Shown here piece after piece: positions 49,861 to 57,478 of a stretch of DNA of 64,000 nt. The number at the start of each line of letters is the position of its first letter. Within the stretch, counting starts at the first letter, position 1. This DNA comes from Chloroflexus aggregans DSM 9485 (GTDB lineage Bacteria; Chloroflexota; Chloroflexia; Chloroflexales; Chloroflexaceae): contig NC_011831.1 of NCBI RefSeq assembly GCF_000021945.1, positions 2,431,353-2,495,352 of the forward strand, written 5' to 3'. The notes beneath the pieces were generated by a model. It did not search any database. It saw only the letters and a list, made by a program, of their open reading frames with translations, and had not been told where the DNA came from. Made by a program: the position numbers and the translations under genes.

Positions 49861-50241
49861 ATGCGTAGCTTCAAAGGAACGATGAATCGGGTCGAGTTGA
49901 TCGGGCGATTGGGGGCCGATCCTGAACTCAAACAGGTAGGCAATGGTGTAACGGTCTGTCGGTTTAATCTGGCGACCAATCGTCCGGGTGGCAACGATGA
50001 TCAGGGACATCGGACCAGTGAAACTGAGTGGACGACGGTGGAGGCATGGGAGCGTTTGGCAGAAGTGTGCGGTAATTATCTGCAAAAGGGGCGGCGGGTG
50101 ATGGTGATGGGCAGCTTGCGCACCGACAAATGGCAAGATAGTGAGAGTGGGCAAATGCGATGGCGGACGTATGTACGTGCCGATGAGGTGATTTTCCTTG
50201 ACGGTGGAGTTGGCCGGCAAGAAGAGGGAGATGAGGAGTAG
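49861..50241 (+). CDS. ssb: Single-stranded DNA-binding protein
   Basis: 126 residues from ATG 49861 with AGGAGGG four bases upstream; the frame opens at 49840. The OB fold is clear: MNRVELIGRLGADPELKQV, VCRFNLATNR, TEWTTVEAWERLAEVCGNYL and KGRRVMVMGSLRTDKW. The protein is shorter than typical SSB. Its acidic tail ends GRQEEGDEE and lacks the Asp-Asp-Ile-Pro-Phe tip that recruits partner proteins. It may be a second, specialised ssb of the genome. It is divergent from the hybrid kinase. Confidence 0.93.
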   Translation: MRSFKGTMNRVELIGRLGADPELKQVGNGVTVCRFNLATNRPGGNDDQGHRTSETEWTTVEAWERLAEVCGNYLQKGRRVMVMGSLRTDKWQDSESGQMRWRTYVRADEVIFLDGGVGRQEEGDEE

Positions 50242-50242
50242 G

Positions 50243-50650
50243 GGAGCGTCCAGAGACGTTAACGCAAAGGCGCAAAGGGCGCAGAGGGCGCAGACGCAAC
50301 AAGCGCCACCCGTAGGGGCACGGCACGCCGTACCCCCACGAAGGGCAAAGGACGGTAACGCAAAGGCGCAAAGAGCGCAGAGGCGCAAAGAGCGCAGAGG
50401 CGCAAAGAGGTTAACGCAAAGGCGCAAAGGGCGCAAAGGCGGCAGACGCAACAAGCGCCACCCGTAGGGGCACGGCACGCCGTGCCCCCACGAAGGGCAA
50501 AGGACGGTAACGCAAAGGCGCAAAGGGCGCAAAGGGCGCAAAGACGGCAGACGCAACAAGCGCCACCCGTAGGGGCACGGCACGCCGTGCCCCCACGAAG
50601 GGCAAAGGACGGTAACGCAAAGGCGCAAAGGGCGCAAAGGCGCGGAGGGT
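50243..50650. repeat. Intergenic repeat island of GCAAAGGCGCAAAGG units
   Basis: Many copies of AACGCAAAGGCGCAAAGGG-like units are interleaved with three copies of a longer block at 50291, 50443 and 50548. Each long block contains GGGGCACGGCACGCCGTGCCCC, a strong palindrome. The island gives long open frames on the minus strand by chance because its units keep frame. It lies between ssb and cysK and resembles dispersed repeats of Chloroflexus genomes. Confidence 0.85.
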
Positions 50651-52683: not shown

Positions 52684-52992
52684 AGGCTGGCATTGGTCAT
52701 TCGGCTCGGATGCAGGACTGCGTTTGTTGCCATGTGCTGGTGTTGGTTCGCGTGTTGTTTGTCCACTCTCGATCCTCGTAGAGATGCTGTCTCGTATCTA
52801 AAGGTAAGGGGGAAGAACACTGTATGAGTCTGTCCTTCATTAATAACGCAGGTGCTTGATGTTGACCAGTGGTTATCGCTGTTGTGATGACATCTCAAGT
52901 AACGCCGGCTTAGGGGCTTGTTCACAAGTCAAGTATAGCTCTGTCTTACACTGAGCGAAGTGGCGGCGAGTCAAAGAGAAAGGAGCCATGCT
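52684..52992. other. Leader/intergenic region upstream of the His-rich gene
   Basis: About 310 bases from the tRNA-Glu terminator to the His-rich gene. A small palindrome CTTGTTCACAAG lies near 52917, but no clear promoter or riboswitch is seen. Confidence 0.4.
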
Positions 52993-53316
52993 ATGACTCA
53001 CCCAATTCATGATCCACACCCCCATATCCACAGCGAGCATTGCGGCCATCTCCGCATTTTGCACAATGGTCACGTCGATTATCTGCATGATGGTCATCTC
53101 CACCATCCACACGAGGGGCACTACGACGAGCACGTGATAGCCGTCAGTTCAGACAACCCCGCCGGCTGTGCGCCAATTGCATGTCAGTGCGGTCACGAAG
53201 GCTGCGGTCATCCGTTGGTGCCGCACGGGGATCATTTTGACTATTTGGTCAATGGTCGTCTTCACCATCGCCACGGCGATCGCTGCGATGATCACGGCCC
53301 GCTAACGGTTTTGTAA
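52993..53316 (+). CDS. Small His-rich, probably zinc-binding protein
   Basis: 107 residues from ATG 52993, with AAAGGAG upstream; the frame opens at 52960. Over a fifth of residues are His. Repeated motifs such as HNGHVDYLHDGHLHHPHEGH and HGDHFDYLVNGRLHHRHGD, together with Cys-Gly-His pairs, indicate metal binding, most likely zinc. There is no signal peptide. Small proteins of this kind occur beside Zur-type regulators in other bacteria, and here the convergent neighbour, one base away, is a Fur-family regulator. A zinc store or chaperone role is inferred. Confidence 0.8.
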   Translation: MTHPIHDPHPHIHSEHCGHLRILHNGHVDYLHDGHLHHPHEGHYDEHVIAVSSDNPAGCAPIACQCGHEGCGHPLVPHGDHFDYLVNGRLHHRHGDRCDDHGPLTVL

Positions 53317-53952: not shown

Positions 53953-55152
53953 TCACCTTAGCAAGAAGGTGGCATACAAGCCAACGAGCAGGAAGAAGCC
54001 AAACCACGCCCCTAACATACCGGTAGCAATCGTACCAAGCCGCTCCACACGGGGAGAGATCTGCGCATCACGCTTCACCCCACCAGACTGGTACATCACC
54101 ATTATGAGATACGCGAGTACTGCGACGCCGACGATGGTGGTTACGGTAAATACGATAATCGATCCCCAATCGAAGGCATAGGGGTAGGTAGCGACACTGT
54201 ACCCGAATCGTGCTAGTGAGACAACCCGGATCGCTTCGCGTACCATACCTACCACAACCAGCGTTCCTATCCAAACGAGCAACGTGCGCGGCGCATGGCG
54301 GATTGGTTGGCGCAGCCAGAAGAAATAGCCGGTCAGTGCTACTCCGATGCCCACTAACGTGATCCCGACTTGCCAACCGATACCGAACTCAACACCTTCG
54401 GTCATCGCCCAGAGCAAGCCGGCAAGCGCGTAGATCGGGCTAATCACAAGGCCTAGTTTCCGACCAAGGTTGGCCACCCATTGTATAAAAGGTGCATCTT
54501 CCTCACTCCGACGGAAATACCAACCGAACAAAGTCAGCGTCACCGCAAGGCTCAGGCAGGCTTGCAAGGGCAACAAAAACACAAGCCGCGGAATGTTCCA
54601 CGCATGGAAGATGATTCCGCGTGTATCAATAATGCCATTCGGCGCATACCACTCCATCCAGCGTTCAGGTCGGATCGAGACTGCCGCCAGCACATGCATA
54701 ATCCAGCCGGCGAAGAAGAGTAAGATGAACGATGCCACCGCCGACCAAAGCAATTTCCCGTCAGGGCTGCCCTTCAGGTAGAACAGGTATGCGAGACTGT
54801 AGCCGCCCATGACCACAAAGATGAAACTGACCGACCAAAACCCGGTCAAAGAGTTGCTGGCATACCAAATTGGATCGTAGATCGTCTGCACAAACAGCAG
54901 AGGTGCAATGCCGGTAACAATCCCTAGCCCAACCGCATTTGGGGTGAGCCGGGCAGCGACCCGTGCCAGCCGTAATCGGTAGTCGGTAGGACGGAGAAAG
55001 CCCCAAATCGCGTACAAACTTGATCCCAAGGCGAGCGTAACAAAGAAGATATGCAACACCCACGTTACGACCAATAACACCTGCAACGCTGGCGGATAAA
55101 ACGGCGCGCCGAGCGGGTCGCGCATCATTTTGAGCATCTCACCGACATTCAT
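53953..55152 (-). CDS. Membrane subunit partner of the cytochrome bd-like protein
   Basis: 399 residues with about nine or ten membrane segments and no CxxCH motif. The order of helices and the early LLVVTWVLHIFFVTLALGSS with a His resemble CydA-like membrane subunits, but the family is not certain. ATG 55152 follows AGAGGTGA. It starts three bases after the stop of the cytochrome c-fused subunit, so both are made from one message. It probably forms a heterodimer that binds heme and oxidises quinol. Electron acceptor unknown. Confidence 0.7.
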   Translation of the reverse strand: MNVGEMLKMMRDPLGAPFYPPALQVLLVVTWVLHIFFVTLALGSSLYAIWGFLRPTDYRLRLARVAARLTPNAVGLGIVTGIAPLLFVQTIYDPIWYASNSLTGFWSVSFIFVVMGGYSLAYLFYLKGSPDGKLLWSAVASFILLFFAGWIMHVLAAVSIRPERWMEWYAPNGIIDTRGIIFHAWNIPRLVFLLPLQACLSLAVTLTLFGWYFRRSEEDAPFIQWVANLGRKLGLVISPIYALAGLLWAMTEGVEFGIGWQVGITLVGIGVALTGYFFWLRQPIRHAPRTLLVWIGTLVVVGMVREAIRVVSLARFGYSVATYPYAFDWGSIIVFTVTTIVGVAVLAYLIMVMYQSGGVKRDAQISPRVERLGTIATGMLGAWFGFFLLVGLYATFLLR

Positions 55153-55155
55153 ATC

Positions 55156-56562
55156 TCACCTCTGCGTGACTACTTGGGGTTGCGACGGATGCACCTGCTG
55201 GACAAAGTATTCGAGATATTGAGCCATAGCGGAAAGTTCTTCTTCAGTGCCGACCACCGGATGCATATACTGGAACCCGCCAATTGCGCGGATGCGCGAC
55301 TTGATCAGATCAGCCGTCGTGGCTCGACGGAGGTATAACAGATCGGCCAGTGACCGTAACGCCAAGCGTTGGTTGAACCCAATCAATGCCGTTTGCTGGC
55401 TCACATTGTGGCACGAGGCGCACTGCTGCATGACTAAGGTGCGTCCGACGGCAATTGTCTGATTGGGCAATCCACTATTGGCCGGCAGCACGATCTGGTC
55501 AGGCCGAGGGAGAAATGGCAACGACCCCAGCATACCGGTCTCATTGAGCCGCTGCTCTTCACTCTGGATACTACGGGCTGGCAGATCGTTGAAAACGAGC
55601 TGATTCGATGACATATAGCCGGCGATAATATCGGGTTTGCGTAAGACTTCGCGGGTGCGTTCGGCGCCAAAGATCGCGGCAAACAACACGAACAGCGCAC
55701 CCAACGCAATCAGGCGTTGCTGGCGCTGGGGAAACCGCCACGCAAACAGCAGACCGGCAAACGTCGCGGCGATTCCGCCAAGAATAACGGTATAGGTAAT
55801 CGGCGGTATGGCGCGGGTTCGCATAATAATTTTGGCGTGCTCGGGCAGCACTGGGTAGAACCAGAAGACGAAAATAGCCAGCGCGACCGCCAAGCCGCCC
55901 AAACCCATCAGGGCCGCATTGCGGATAATCGGTTCGCGCTCGGGGTATGTTTTGGGCATGCCAGTCACAATGAGCAGCGCCCACGCTGCGGTAATCGGGA
56001 ACATAAGCGCAAAGCGCAGGAAGATTTGTGGCCAGAAGGTGGGATTGAAGAAACCGTTCAGACTCACACCGGTATCTAACCACAGACCGGGGGTGAGCTT
56101 AAATGATAAAACTCCTACGATGATAGATAATGTGCCGGTACCGCCAAGGGCGAGAATCCATGCCAACCGTAGGTGTGTTTTCGGATCAATCCGACCGAAC
56201 GAATAGTAGTAGGCGATAATACCAACGACATCAATCAAAAACATGTACCATTCAGCTCCCCAGTAGAAGACGAAATTGTGGATAAGCGTCGAAATACCGC
56301 GTGGGTTCGCTGCGGTAGTGGTTTGCCAGATACCGACGCCGGCCATCGCGCCGAAGACATACGCAAAGACGAGCAAGCCTAATGCGCTCCGGCGTAAGTA
56401 CTCGTACAGTTCAGGACGCTTTTCATAAACCGCCCGTCGTTCGAGATAGAGGTTGAACCATGCCGCAGCGACGGTCAGGTGTGAGGCAAGTACGTGGAAT
56501 GCCGAAACAATCGCCACGTACATGGCCGAATGGATGAAGATACCTTCCCAAATCGGATACAT
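55156..56562 (-). CDS. Cytochrome bd-like membrane subunit fused to cytochrome c
   Basis: 468 residues from ATG 56562, which has GGAGGT four bases upstream; a TTG at 56574 is not needed. The first 340 residues form about nine membrane helices with several His (IHSAMYVAIVSAFHVLASHL) as in cytochrome bd subunit I relatives. A hydrophilic tail follows with one c-type heme motif, CASCH at 381-385, and a candidate axial Met around YMHPVV. It probably passes electrons from quinol through b-type heme to the outside c heme. A Crp-type palindrome lies 40 bases upstream and a Crp/Fnr gene lies beyond it. This fused form is not the standard oxidase. Confidence 0.75.
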   Translation of the reverse strand: MYPIWEGIFIHSAMYVAIVSAFHVLASHLTVAAAWFNLYLERRAVYEKRPELYEYLRRSALGLLVFAYVFGAMAGVGIWQTTTAANPRGISTLIHNFVFYWGAEWYMFLIDVVGIIAYYYSFGRIDPKTHLRLAWILALGGTGTLSIIVGVLSFKLTPGLWLDTGVSLNGFFNPTFWPQIFLRFALMFPITAAWALLIVTGMPKTYPEREPIIRNAALMGLGGLAVALAIFVFWFYPVLPEHAKIIMRTRAIPPITYTVILGGIAATFAGLLFAWRFPQRQQRLIALGALFVLFAAIFGAERTREVLRKPDIIAGYMSSNQLVFNDLPARSIQSEEQRLNETGMLGSLPFLPRPDQIVLPANSGLPNQTIAVGRTLVMQQCASCHNVSQQTALIGFNQRLALRSLADLLYLRRATTADLIKSRIRAIGGFQYMHPVVGTEEELSAMAQYLEYFVQQVHPSQPQVVTQR

Positions 56563-56601
56563 AAACACCTCCAAATGCTACCGAGCCCAACGTGACTTAT
56601 T

Positions 56602-56617
56602 AGTGATATTATTCACT
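56602..56617. promoter_or_regulatory. Crp/Fnr-type binding palindrome
   Basis: AGTGA, six bases, then TCACT: a perfect inverted repeat matching the TGTGA-N6-TCACA spacing of Crp sites except for outer bases. It is about 40 bases before the start of the cytochrome gene, and a Crp/Fnr-family gene is next door. Confidence 0.65.
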
Positions 56618-56638
56618 TTTCTCTAGGCACAAATAATA

Positions 56639-56661
56639 CGACAGCACCTACGGTGCTGTCG
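56639..56661 (-). terminator. Hairpin downstream of the Crp/Fnr gene
   Basis: CGACAGCACC (56639-56648) pairs with GGTGCTGTCG (56652-56661). On the minus strand it is followed by TATTATTTG. A perfect 14-base palindrome TTGCGCTAGCGCAA (56662-56675) precedes it. Confidence 0.6.
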
Positions 56662-56797
56662 TTGCGCTAGCGCAAGATCACGGGCCTGTTTGTGAAATAT
56701 GTGTCACCCGATCCGCGATCCGAGCGGATGAACATATTTGTTAGGATGGCTCAGGCGGAGAGAAATTACATTGGCATGAATTCAGGATCAAACAACG

Positions 56798-57478
56798 TCA
56801 CAGCACCTCCGCTTTGGCGAACAATTGTTGTCGATCACTCACTATCAGGCGACCGTGCTGAACTTGCACAAGACCCTCTTCCTGCCATTGATGCAACAAG
56901 CGGCTAATGGTGTAGGGACTGGCGCCGATCAGATCGGCAAGATCGCGCTGTAATAATGGAATTGTGAGGGGGGCAGGACACGCCATATCGCAATGACGTT
57001 TCATCCAACGCACCAGCGCTTTAGCCAGCCGTATCTCAACATCGTTGGTAGCCATTTCGAGCAATTGATCTTGCAAATCTTCGCGATACTCGCTCAAGAG
57101 TTGCATGGCGTTGCGTTGCAATTGGGGAAATTGCTGCATAAGTGACTGAAACATCAGGGTGGGCCACGCCAACATGTGGCCCGCTGAGATTGATTGCGCA
57201 TAGAGTGTGTATCGACTCTCGGAAACGATAGCGCTTAACCCGATCACTTCATGCGCTTCAGCAATCCGAAACACACTTTGCCGACCAGTGGGAGTCAGTT
57301 TGTATAATCGGATTTGCCCTGTCACAATGAGGTAGAGATGGGTTGCCGGATCGCCGTCGGCGAAGAGTTGCGTGTCGCGTTTTACCTGAATCGTCTCGGC
57401 AAAGCGCATAATAACAGCAATGTCGTTTGATGCGAGACCTGTTAAAAGACGAGAGTGGCTCAGGGTGTCAGAATTCAT
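56798..57478 (-). CDS. Crp/Fnr-family transcriptional regulator
   Basis: 226 residues. The N-terminal cyclic-nucleotide-like beta-roll is present (DTQLFADGDPATHLYLIVTGQIRLYK). A long dimer helix leads to a winged helix (LQRDLADLIGASPYTISRLLHQWQEEGLV). The Cys cluster of Fnr is absent, so oxygen sensing by Fe-S is not expected; heme, NO or cyclic nucleotide ligands are possible. It is upstream of the cytochrome pair on the same strand, separated by a terminator-like hairpin and a matching palindrome, so it is the likely regulator of that pair. Confidence 0.92.
   Translation of the reverse strand: MNSDTLSHSRLLTGLASNDIAVIMRFAETIQVKRDTQLFADGDPATHLYLIVTGQIRLYKLTPTGRQSVFRIAEAHEVIGLSAIVSESRYTLYAQSISAGHMLAWPTLMFQSLMQQFPQLQRNAMQLLSEYREDLQDQLLEMATNDVEIRLAKALVRWMKRHCDMACPAPLTIPLLQRDLADLIGASPYTISRLLHQWQEEGLVQVQHGRLIVSDRQQLFAKAEVL

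Follow-up and report, generated by a model that had tools for sequence, protein, structure and literature searches.

The window, that is, the whole stretch of 64,000 nucleotides of Chloroflexus aggregans DSM 9485 DNA that was analysed, contains two neighbouring membrane protein genes, named A and B here, preceded by a gene for a Crp/Fnr-family regulator. The features of this region are listed below in window coordinates.

53953–55152, minus strand: gene B, predicted second CydA-like subunit that lacks heme c, with 10 predicted transmembrane helices
55156–56562, minus strand: gene A, predicted CydA-like membrane subunit with a C-terminal monoheme cytochrome c domain, 8 transmembrane helices predicted
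55408–55422, minus strand: CASCH heme-c motif, residues 381–385 of A, the likely axial Met being M433
56602–56617, strand-neutral: AGTGATATTATTCACT, AGTGA-type palindrome with conserved core GTGA-N6-TCAC, located after the predicted transcription start
56633–56638, minus strand: TATTAT, probable −10 element, beginning 30 bases past the operator centre
56662–56675, strand-neutral: TTGCGCTAGCGCAA palindrome, probable operator of the adjoining regulator
56798–57478, minus strand: regulator of the Crp/Fnr family that resembles NnrR in operator, recognition helix and profile score
57720–58868, minus strand: ArsP_1-type permease adjoining the regulator, retained nearby in Chloroflexus and Roseiflexus loci

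The reading frame of A spans 55156–56574 (minus strand), and its conserved start is the ATG at 56562 (MYPIWEG...). Counted from this ATG, the CASCH motif occupies residues 381–385, as the earlier note on this DNA had stated, and the exact AGTGA-N6-TCACT palindrome it had pointed out lies 39 bases ahead. The two-gene unit with a second membrane protein was also correctly recognized, and its pairing is kept across phyla; the adjacent Crp/Fnr-family gene is located upstream of A. A Fur-family gene is among the neighbours of the window pair. It is adjoined at 52960–53316 by a small His-rich protein with many DHxDYLxxGxLHHPH-like units, for which no Pfam match was found. At 49964–50637, around a histidine-kinase ORF, a repeated low-complexity coding-like stretch of PSWGHGVPCPYGWRLLRL units was observed, which is probably a dispersed repeat.

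The genome itself (G000, one contig of 4,684,931 bases) contains a second A–B pair at C1:3271554 with 80% identity and a crp gene before it; this second crp-A-B unit corresponds to L010:8754–12180. In the tree, A of the second copy groups with the Roseiflexus copy and not with the window copy (support 92/89), and the unit may have originated by transfer or by an old duplication.

Protein A matched Pfam PF01654 with 21.5 bits, under the gathering cut-off of 26.2, and its heme part matched PF13442. NCBIfam gave nothing for A or B at E values up to 1, and a direct PDB search with the single A or single B sequence gave no match. Through a profile of 44 homologues, A was matched to 5doq_A, the CydA of Geobacillus, at E 7.2e-10, and a further, weak stretch of the match covers the ExGRQPW region; the hhalign comparison with 11 canonical Chloroflexota CydA proteins (11 of 21 loci taken in) gave 97.1%. 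The AF2 model of A (pLDDT 89, pTM 0.85) matched ten bd subunit-I chains with VIA Z of 25.9–27.9. The next family, ACIII, reached up to 17.6, and an ACIII-like identity of A was rejected on this clearly weaker fold match. Judged from profile match, structural comparison and predicted model, A is a protein with the cytochrome bd subunit-I fold, and the membrane part belongs to the bd family as had been proposed. The fusion of this part with a heme c was likewise borne out, since CxxCH is present in A of all 80 loci listed out of 212 confirmed relatives. Common annotation serves the pair poorly, as the earlier note suspected: in four plasmid records with NCBI-style names, A is called "cytochrome c" or "c-type cytochrome", and B goes under "hypothetical protein" or "cytochrome C".

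H23, H95, E104, N173, R183, E301, R304, E305, R308 and P310, together with the heme-c ligands C381, C384, H385 and M433, are invariant in 44/44 aligned A homologues; at position 111, 14 of the homologues have D and 30 have E. By alignment, H23 corresponds to the CydA helix-1 His, E104 to the helix-3 Glu, and E305/R308/P310 to ExGRQP. The multi-helix membrane part with bd-type His described before is therefore present, and the check across homologues found a heme-ligand-type His kept in it, H23, without exception. Where CydA has the b558 His, A has the invariant Arg R183 (44/44). R183 falls on this His in the alignment of the A profile with 5doq_A and one residue beside it in the hhalign alignment, and neither alignment places a His at the b558 position. 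The window A also contains no Q-loop, its loop 6 being about 15–16 residues (239–253), and no Met within residues 254–310. Its Lys and Arg residues number 2–4 in each of loops 1, 3, 5 and 7 and 0, 1, 1 and 3 in loops 0, 2, 4 and 6. This pattern fits eight helices with both termini outside, and the heme-c domain should therefore face outward. The heme content of A–B we infer from these sequences; we know of no spectra or activity for any close relative of the pair.

The profiles of A and B matched each other by hhalign (probability 96.9, E 1.8e-10), which marks the two proteins as paralogues. The best Foldseek match of B was bd subunit I, weakly (E 1.1e-3), and hhalign of B against canonical CydA gave 71%; the PDB search with a profile of B gave no bd match, the top matches being unrelated proteins at E 0.46 and up. 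H34, R189, R305 and R309 of B are invariant in 36/36 homologues. By these comparisons B is a second CydA-like subunit, as in CydAA′, and a physical association of A and B as a CydAA′-like pair is predicted. B shares the locus with A in 73 of the 80 loci listed (of 212 confirmed relatives), five of these 73 having other genes between B and A, and is absent from L066, L087, L089, L099, L109, L112 and L113; the check on whether the second subunit is kept in homologues thus came out in favour of the two-gene unit.

Matches to A were found in 8 of 100 relatives, the own genome counted, and in 15 of 400 genomes of the phylum, two of which (L031 and L032) are canonical CydA-like without CxxCH. The collection scan confirmed 212 relatives, of which 80 are listed: 17 are near, with at least 64% identity, and come mainly from Chloroflexota, and the other 63, with identity of about 30%, include many Desulfobacterota. 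Canonical CydA was over the cut-off in 16 of 61 relatives and in none of the 7 with A–B. Thermus thermophilus has two plasmid pairs with 53% identity, and plasmid pairs were also revealed in Methylosinus and Agrobacterium. One Thermus pair (L157:6235–8801, 53% identity) has a ZnuA-type protein beside it, as well as a gene with the name SaoD/DsrE, and its presence on the plasmid is likely due to horizontal transfer.

The neighbouring genes fit, rather than prove, a respiratory module that takes its electrons at heme c. The gene order B, Rieske, cytochrome b, A was found in L053, L060, L068, L096 and L100, the end of a cytochrome b gene lies before A in L087, and a monoheme cytochrome c gene precedes A in L041, L042 and L044. 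The B–Rieske–cytochrome b–A order, found in other phyla, suggests that a bc complex and a bd-type oxidase are joined via the heme c of the oxidase; the interleaved bc complex may use the heme c of A instead of cytochrome c1. The Methylosinus and Agrobacterium pairs are followed by a kinase and a regulator, with ActS/PrrB/RegB and ActR/PrrA/RegA as best NCBIfam matches, all under the curated cut-offs (213 and 228 against 350; 156 and 160 against 250). The Methylosinus plasmid locus (L159:11983–16925) has, after A–B, a cytochrome c and the RegBA-like kinase and regulator, and adjoins methanobactin genes. In most desulfobacterial A proteins the C-terminus is extended by a part that contains seven more CxxCH; in L057:7995–10637 and similar loci this extended A also showed weak MtrC/MtrF-domain matches.

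The earlier note read A–B as oxidising quinol and sending electrons outward via heme c to an external acceptor. The outward orientation expected for the heme-c domain would agree with this, and the desulfobacterial A with seven more CxxCH could be an outward wire. However, the window A has neither a Q-loop nor b558 ligands, the active-site-type ligands are kept in 44/44 homologues, and a second quinol oxidase would be superfluous in the six loci where bc genes lie right before A, the heme-c gene. We therefore consider outward transfer from quinol very improbable. Considering the missing Q-loop of the window A, the Arg that replaces the b558 His in 44/44 and the Rieske/cytochrome b loci, electrons most likely enter at heme c and pass to O2, as in an OR-C type enzyme.

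Upstream of A, the palindrome TTGCG-N4-CGCAA (TTGCGCTAGCGCAA in the window), which the earlier note had overlooked, was exact in 11 of 13 crp-preceded regions and had one mismatch in L035; crp-preceded L050 had no such site even when one mismatch was allowed, and neither did any of the 7 upstream regions without crp. No exact match appeared in 6000 shuffled regions, the shuffles keeping base composition only. The loci without crp stand at three places on the tree and the site is missing there, which indicates that regulator and site were lost together. The own genome contains 13 exact TTGCGNNNNCGCAA, against 6 for the reversed control. Eleven of these 13 are inside ORFs and two precede the two A–B pairs, that of the second copy counting as outside coding only if the conserved ATG is the start. 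In the 62 distant, mostly desulfobacterial loci, no TTGCG, TTGAY, TTGAC, GTGA or TTGYG site was found in the 350 bases before the pair, so the switch does not extend beyond the Chloroflexota tier. The pairs of Thermus, Methylosinus and Agrobacterium had no TTGCG, TTGAY or GTGA site (up to one mismatch) in the 300 bases upstream. Two side observations concern this region. In L016:11035–11725, and likewise in L038, the crp–A intergenic stretch is present in tandem duplicate and the TTGCG site is 534 bases from the start of A; in the window, the TTGCG site and the −10 element enclose an inverted repeat, GACAGCACC-TAC-GGTGCTGTC (56640–56660), which is imperfect in L034.

A −10-like hexamer was found 29 or 30 bases past the operator centre in 12/12 loci. 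Scored with a −10 weight matrix, this offset was the best of 45 (mean over 10 loci 4.4 bits; next non-overlapping offset −0.06). The hexamers of L043, L010, L039 and L040 are poor (1.6–2.1 bits), and L036, L038, L040 and L043 have a better-scoring hexamer elsewhere within 15–50 bases. The spacing places the operator centre at the class II activator position (−41.5), and transcription is predicted to begin near 56626.

The AGTGA palindrome had been proposed as the site of the adjacent Crp. As a bare pattern, exact AGTGA-N6-TCACT is at background level: the 4.68 Mb genome has 3 copies of it and 4 of the reversed control. A relative with a 99% identical protein A already has different outer arms. 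The core GTGA-N6-TCAC was exact in 7 of 13 crp-preceded regions and 3 of 7 without crp (the window and the near-identical L034 counted separately), where shuffles expect 0.08 in 20; the core is therefore real. It is located past the predicted start in Chloroflexus and Roseiflexus loci and is also present in crp-less L045, L046 and L048. The check on conservation of the palindrome thus divided: the core is kept in Chloroflexus and Roseiflexus and the outer arms vary.

At the places of CRP residues 180 and 181, the regulators have P, H or I at the first and Y or F at the second (12/12), and both R180 and E181 of the cAMP-type CRP are missing from the adjacent regulator. The S. meliloti regulator, which we take to be NnrR in line with its position beside nirK in a record without annotation, has L and H there, and the Desulfosarcina relative has L and Y. 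In PMC1274295, CRP residues 180 and 181 are tied to bases G3 and A6 and the NnrR consensus is given as ctTTGcgnnnncgCAAag; TTGCGCTATCGCAA and TTGCGCGAGCGCAA are among the NnrR-regulon promoters in PMC6710368. A recognition helix without R180/E181, taken with this consensus, means that the adjacent Crp should read TTGCG and not GTGA. The recognition helix and the co-occurrence of crp with TTGCG-N4-CGCAA make the AGTGA palindrome improbable as its site, and this assignment was rejected; the idea of a regulated module gains support from the dedicated regulator.

In the A5 profile, the Desulfosarcina regulator scored 212 bits, that of Chelatococcus (nor cluster) 183, S. meliloti NnrR 169, the best solved CRP/FNR protein 134, the T. 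thermophilus relative 114, FNR 89, CRP 85 and FixK-like proteins 57 and 43; the first two were picked as top matches, so the ranking is partly selected, and the S. meliloti regulator was taken independently of it. The fork that would unite the regulator with NnrR apart from FNR, CRP and FixK had support of 84/92, with few outgroups on long branches. An NnrR-like regulator is what both the operator and the recognition helix suggest. The searched Chelatococcus nor region yielded no TTGCG-N4-CGCAA even when one mismatch was allowed, and the S. meliloti nap-nir-nor region had no exact copy within its first 22 kb. On the Desulfosarcina plasmid (L167:3977–4727), an exact TTGCGCCAGCGCAA follows directly after the NnrR-like crp gene, near ZIP, DUF1858 and FprA genes, which suggests a separate regulon.

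The host is a hot-spring photosynthetic bacterium, and the NnrR type of regulator switches on nitric-oxide enzymes in denitrifying bacteria. It may be asked whether the bd-type site of A reduces NO with heme-c electrons while the NnrR-like regulator senses NO. The NnrR-type operator and recognition helix speak for it, and the regulator has its best relatives on plasmids next to a nor/nnrS cluster (Chelatococcus) and next to FprA and NapC/NirT genes (Desulfosarcina). An octaheme cytochrome gene follows the A–B pair, after B, in seven Geobacter-type loci (L052, L054, L055, L056, L078, L079 and L088); that of L054, the one scanned, matches PF11783. On the other side, nirK, considered as a co-occurring NO source, was over the cut-off in 6 of 100 relatives and A–B present in 8 of 100 with a single genome common to both, and was rejected for lack of association. 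Moreover, the two alphaproteobacterial pairs adjoin RegBA-type redox kinases and not NO regulators, and the regulator signals drift among relatives. We know of no bd-family NO reductase. O2 is the likelier substrate; NO reduction or handling, in our view unlikely, has to be taken seriously as a rival on account of the regulator.

The surroundings of the pair bear on a further possibility, namely that A–B is a copper-free stand-in for heme-copper oxidases under copper shortage or NO block. The own genome contains two COX1-family genes, the Fur-family gene and the ArsP-type permease are neighbours of the window pair, methanobactin and feoB genes lie by the Methylosinus pair, and a ZnuA-type protein lies by the Thermus pair. 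However, these neighbours vary by lineage, and the neighbourhood of the second copy (L010) gave no permease or Fur match; such a role seems quite doubtful.

The reading we favour, and hold to be reasonably probable, is that A–B is a two-subunit CydAA′-like O2 reductase of the OR-C type, switched on by its NnrR-like neighbour. The heme c of A would be reduced from outside the membrane, with a cytochrome c, auracyanin or a bc-type complex as the donor. From heme c the electron would move on to an active site of two hemes within the membrane part (H23, E104, E305 and R308), where O2 would be reduced, and B would be a duplicated subunit I standing in for CydB. The neighbouring Crp/Fnr protein would bind TTGCGCTAGCGCAA at about −41.5 (class II), contact RNA polymerase and activate the operon; as the regulator is NnrR-like, it likely responds to NO or to low oxygen. 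A second regulator, perhaps one that represses, is the probable binder of the GTGA-N6-TCAC located past the start. More tentatively, we put forward as a possibility a copper-free, cytochrome c-driven bd-family enzyme in the NO metabolism of Chloroflexota, which would reduce NO or sustain O2 respiration under NO and be controlled by a private NnrR-like sensor with a TTGCGCNNGCGCAA operator. If the NnrR-like link is true, the bd superfamily would be tied to nitric-oxide biology in phototrophic Chloroflexota.

Compared with canonical CydAB (qOR), A shares the subunit-I fold and the H19-, E99- and ExGRQPW-type residues, and differs by the Arg for the b558 His and, in the window A, by the absent Q-loop and the absent Met at 254–310; the pair further differs by the added heme c, the missing ninth helix and a CydA-like B in place of CydB. 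ACIII membrane subunits resemble A in general helical fold, as a clearly weaker match than bd subunit I. The OR-N CydAA′ of Nitrospirota and Nitrospinota, as presented in PMC12342949 and PMC10839748, likewise consists of paired CydA paralogues with cytochrome c as proposed donor, and differs in that the heme c is fused to A in the window pair; no Nitrospira locus was among the 80 loci listed. With alphaproteobacterial NnrR, as described in PMC1274295 and PMC6710368, the window regulator shares the operator TTGCG-N4-CGCAA as well as the absence of E181 from the recognition helix, whereas it has one local target operon per locus and not a denitrification regulon.

The closest likeness is to the OR-C family: A–B has the bd active-site-type residues, no quinol site, a CydA with a CydA paralogue, and a heme c. 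This placement is a probable one, made by shared features. A heme c on a subunit-I-like protein is the mark of OR-C, a family of the cytochrome bd superfamily reportedly described by Murali, Gennis and Hemp in 2021. To our knowledge, no heme-c-bearing bd-type oxidase has been purified. The OR-C family is named in the available parts of PMC13189123 and PMC10839748, which describe no dedicated NnrR-like switch for it. The heme c that sets this bd relative apart from standard bd oxidases is not new in itself, the heme-c branch being already published. Among titles and abstract openings of the literature on Chloroflexus/Roseiflexus bd or heme-c oxidases, NnrR with bd, and NnrR in Chloroflexi, none reports the A–B/NnrR-like circuit. 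By every feature tested, A–B belongs to the branch of the bd superfamily that bears heme c, a published kind of enzyme; what is new is its private NnrR-like circuit and, in other phyla, the bc-interleaved gene order. The locus would represent a thermophilic version of that branch in which A has one heme c, the operon is small and consists of two genes, and the regulator and operator predict the inducing condition.
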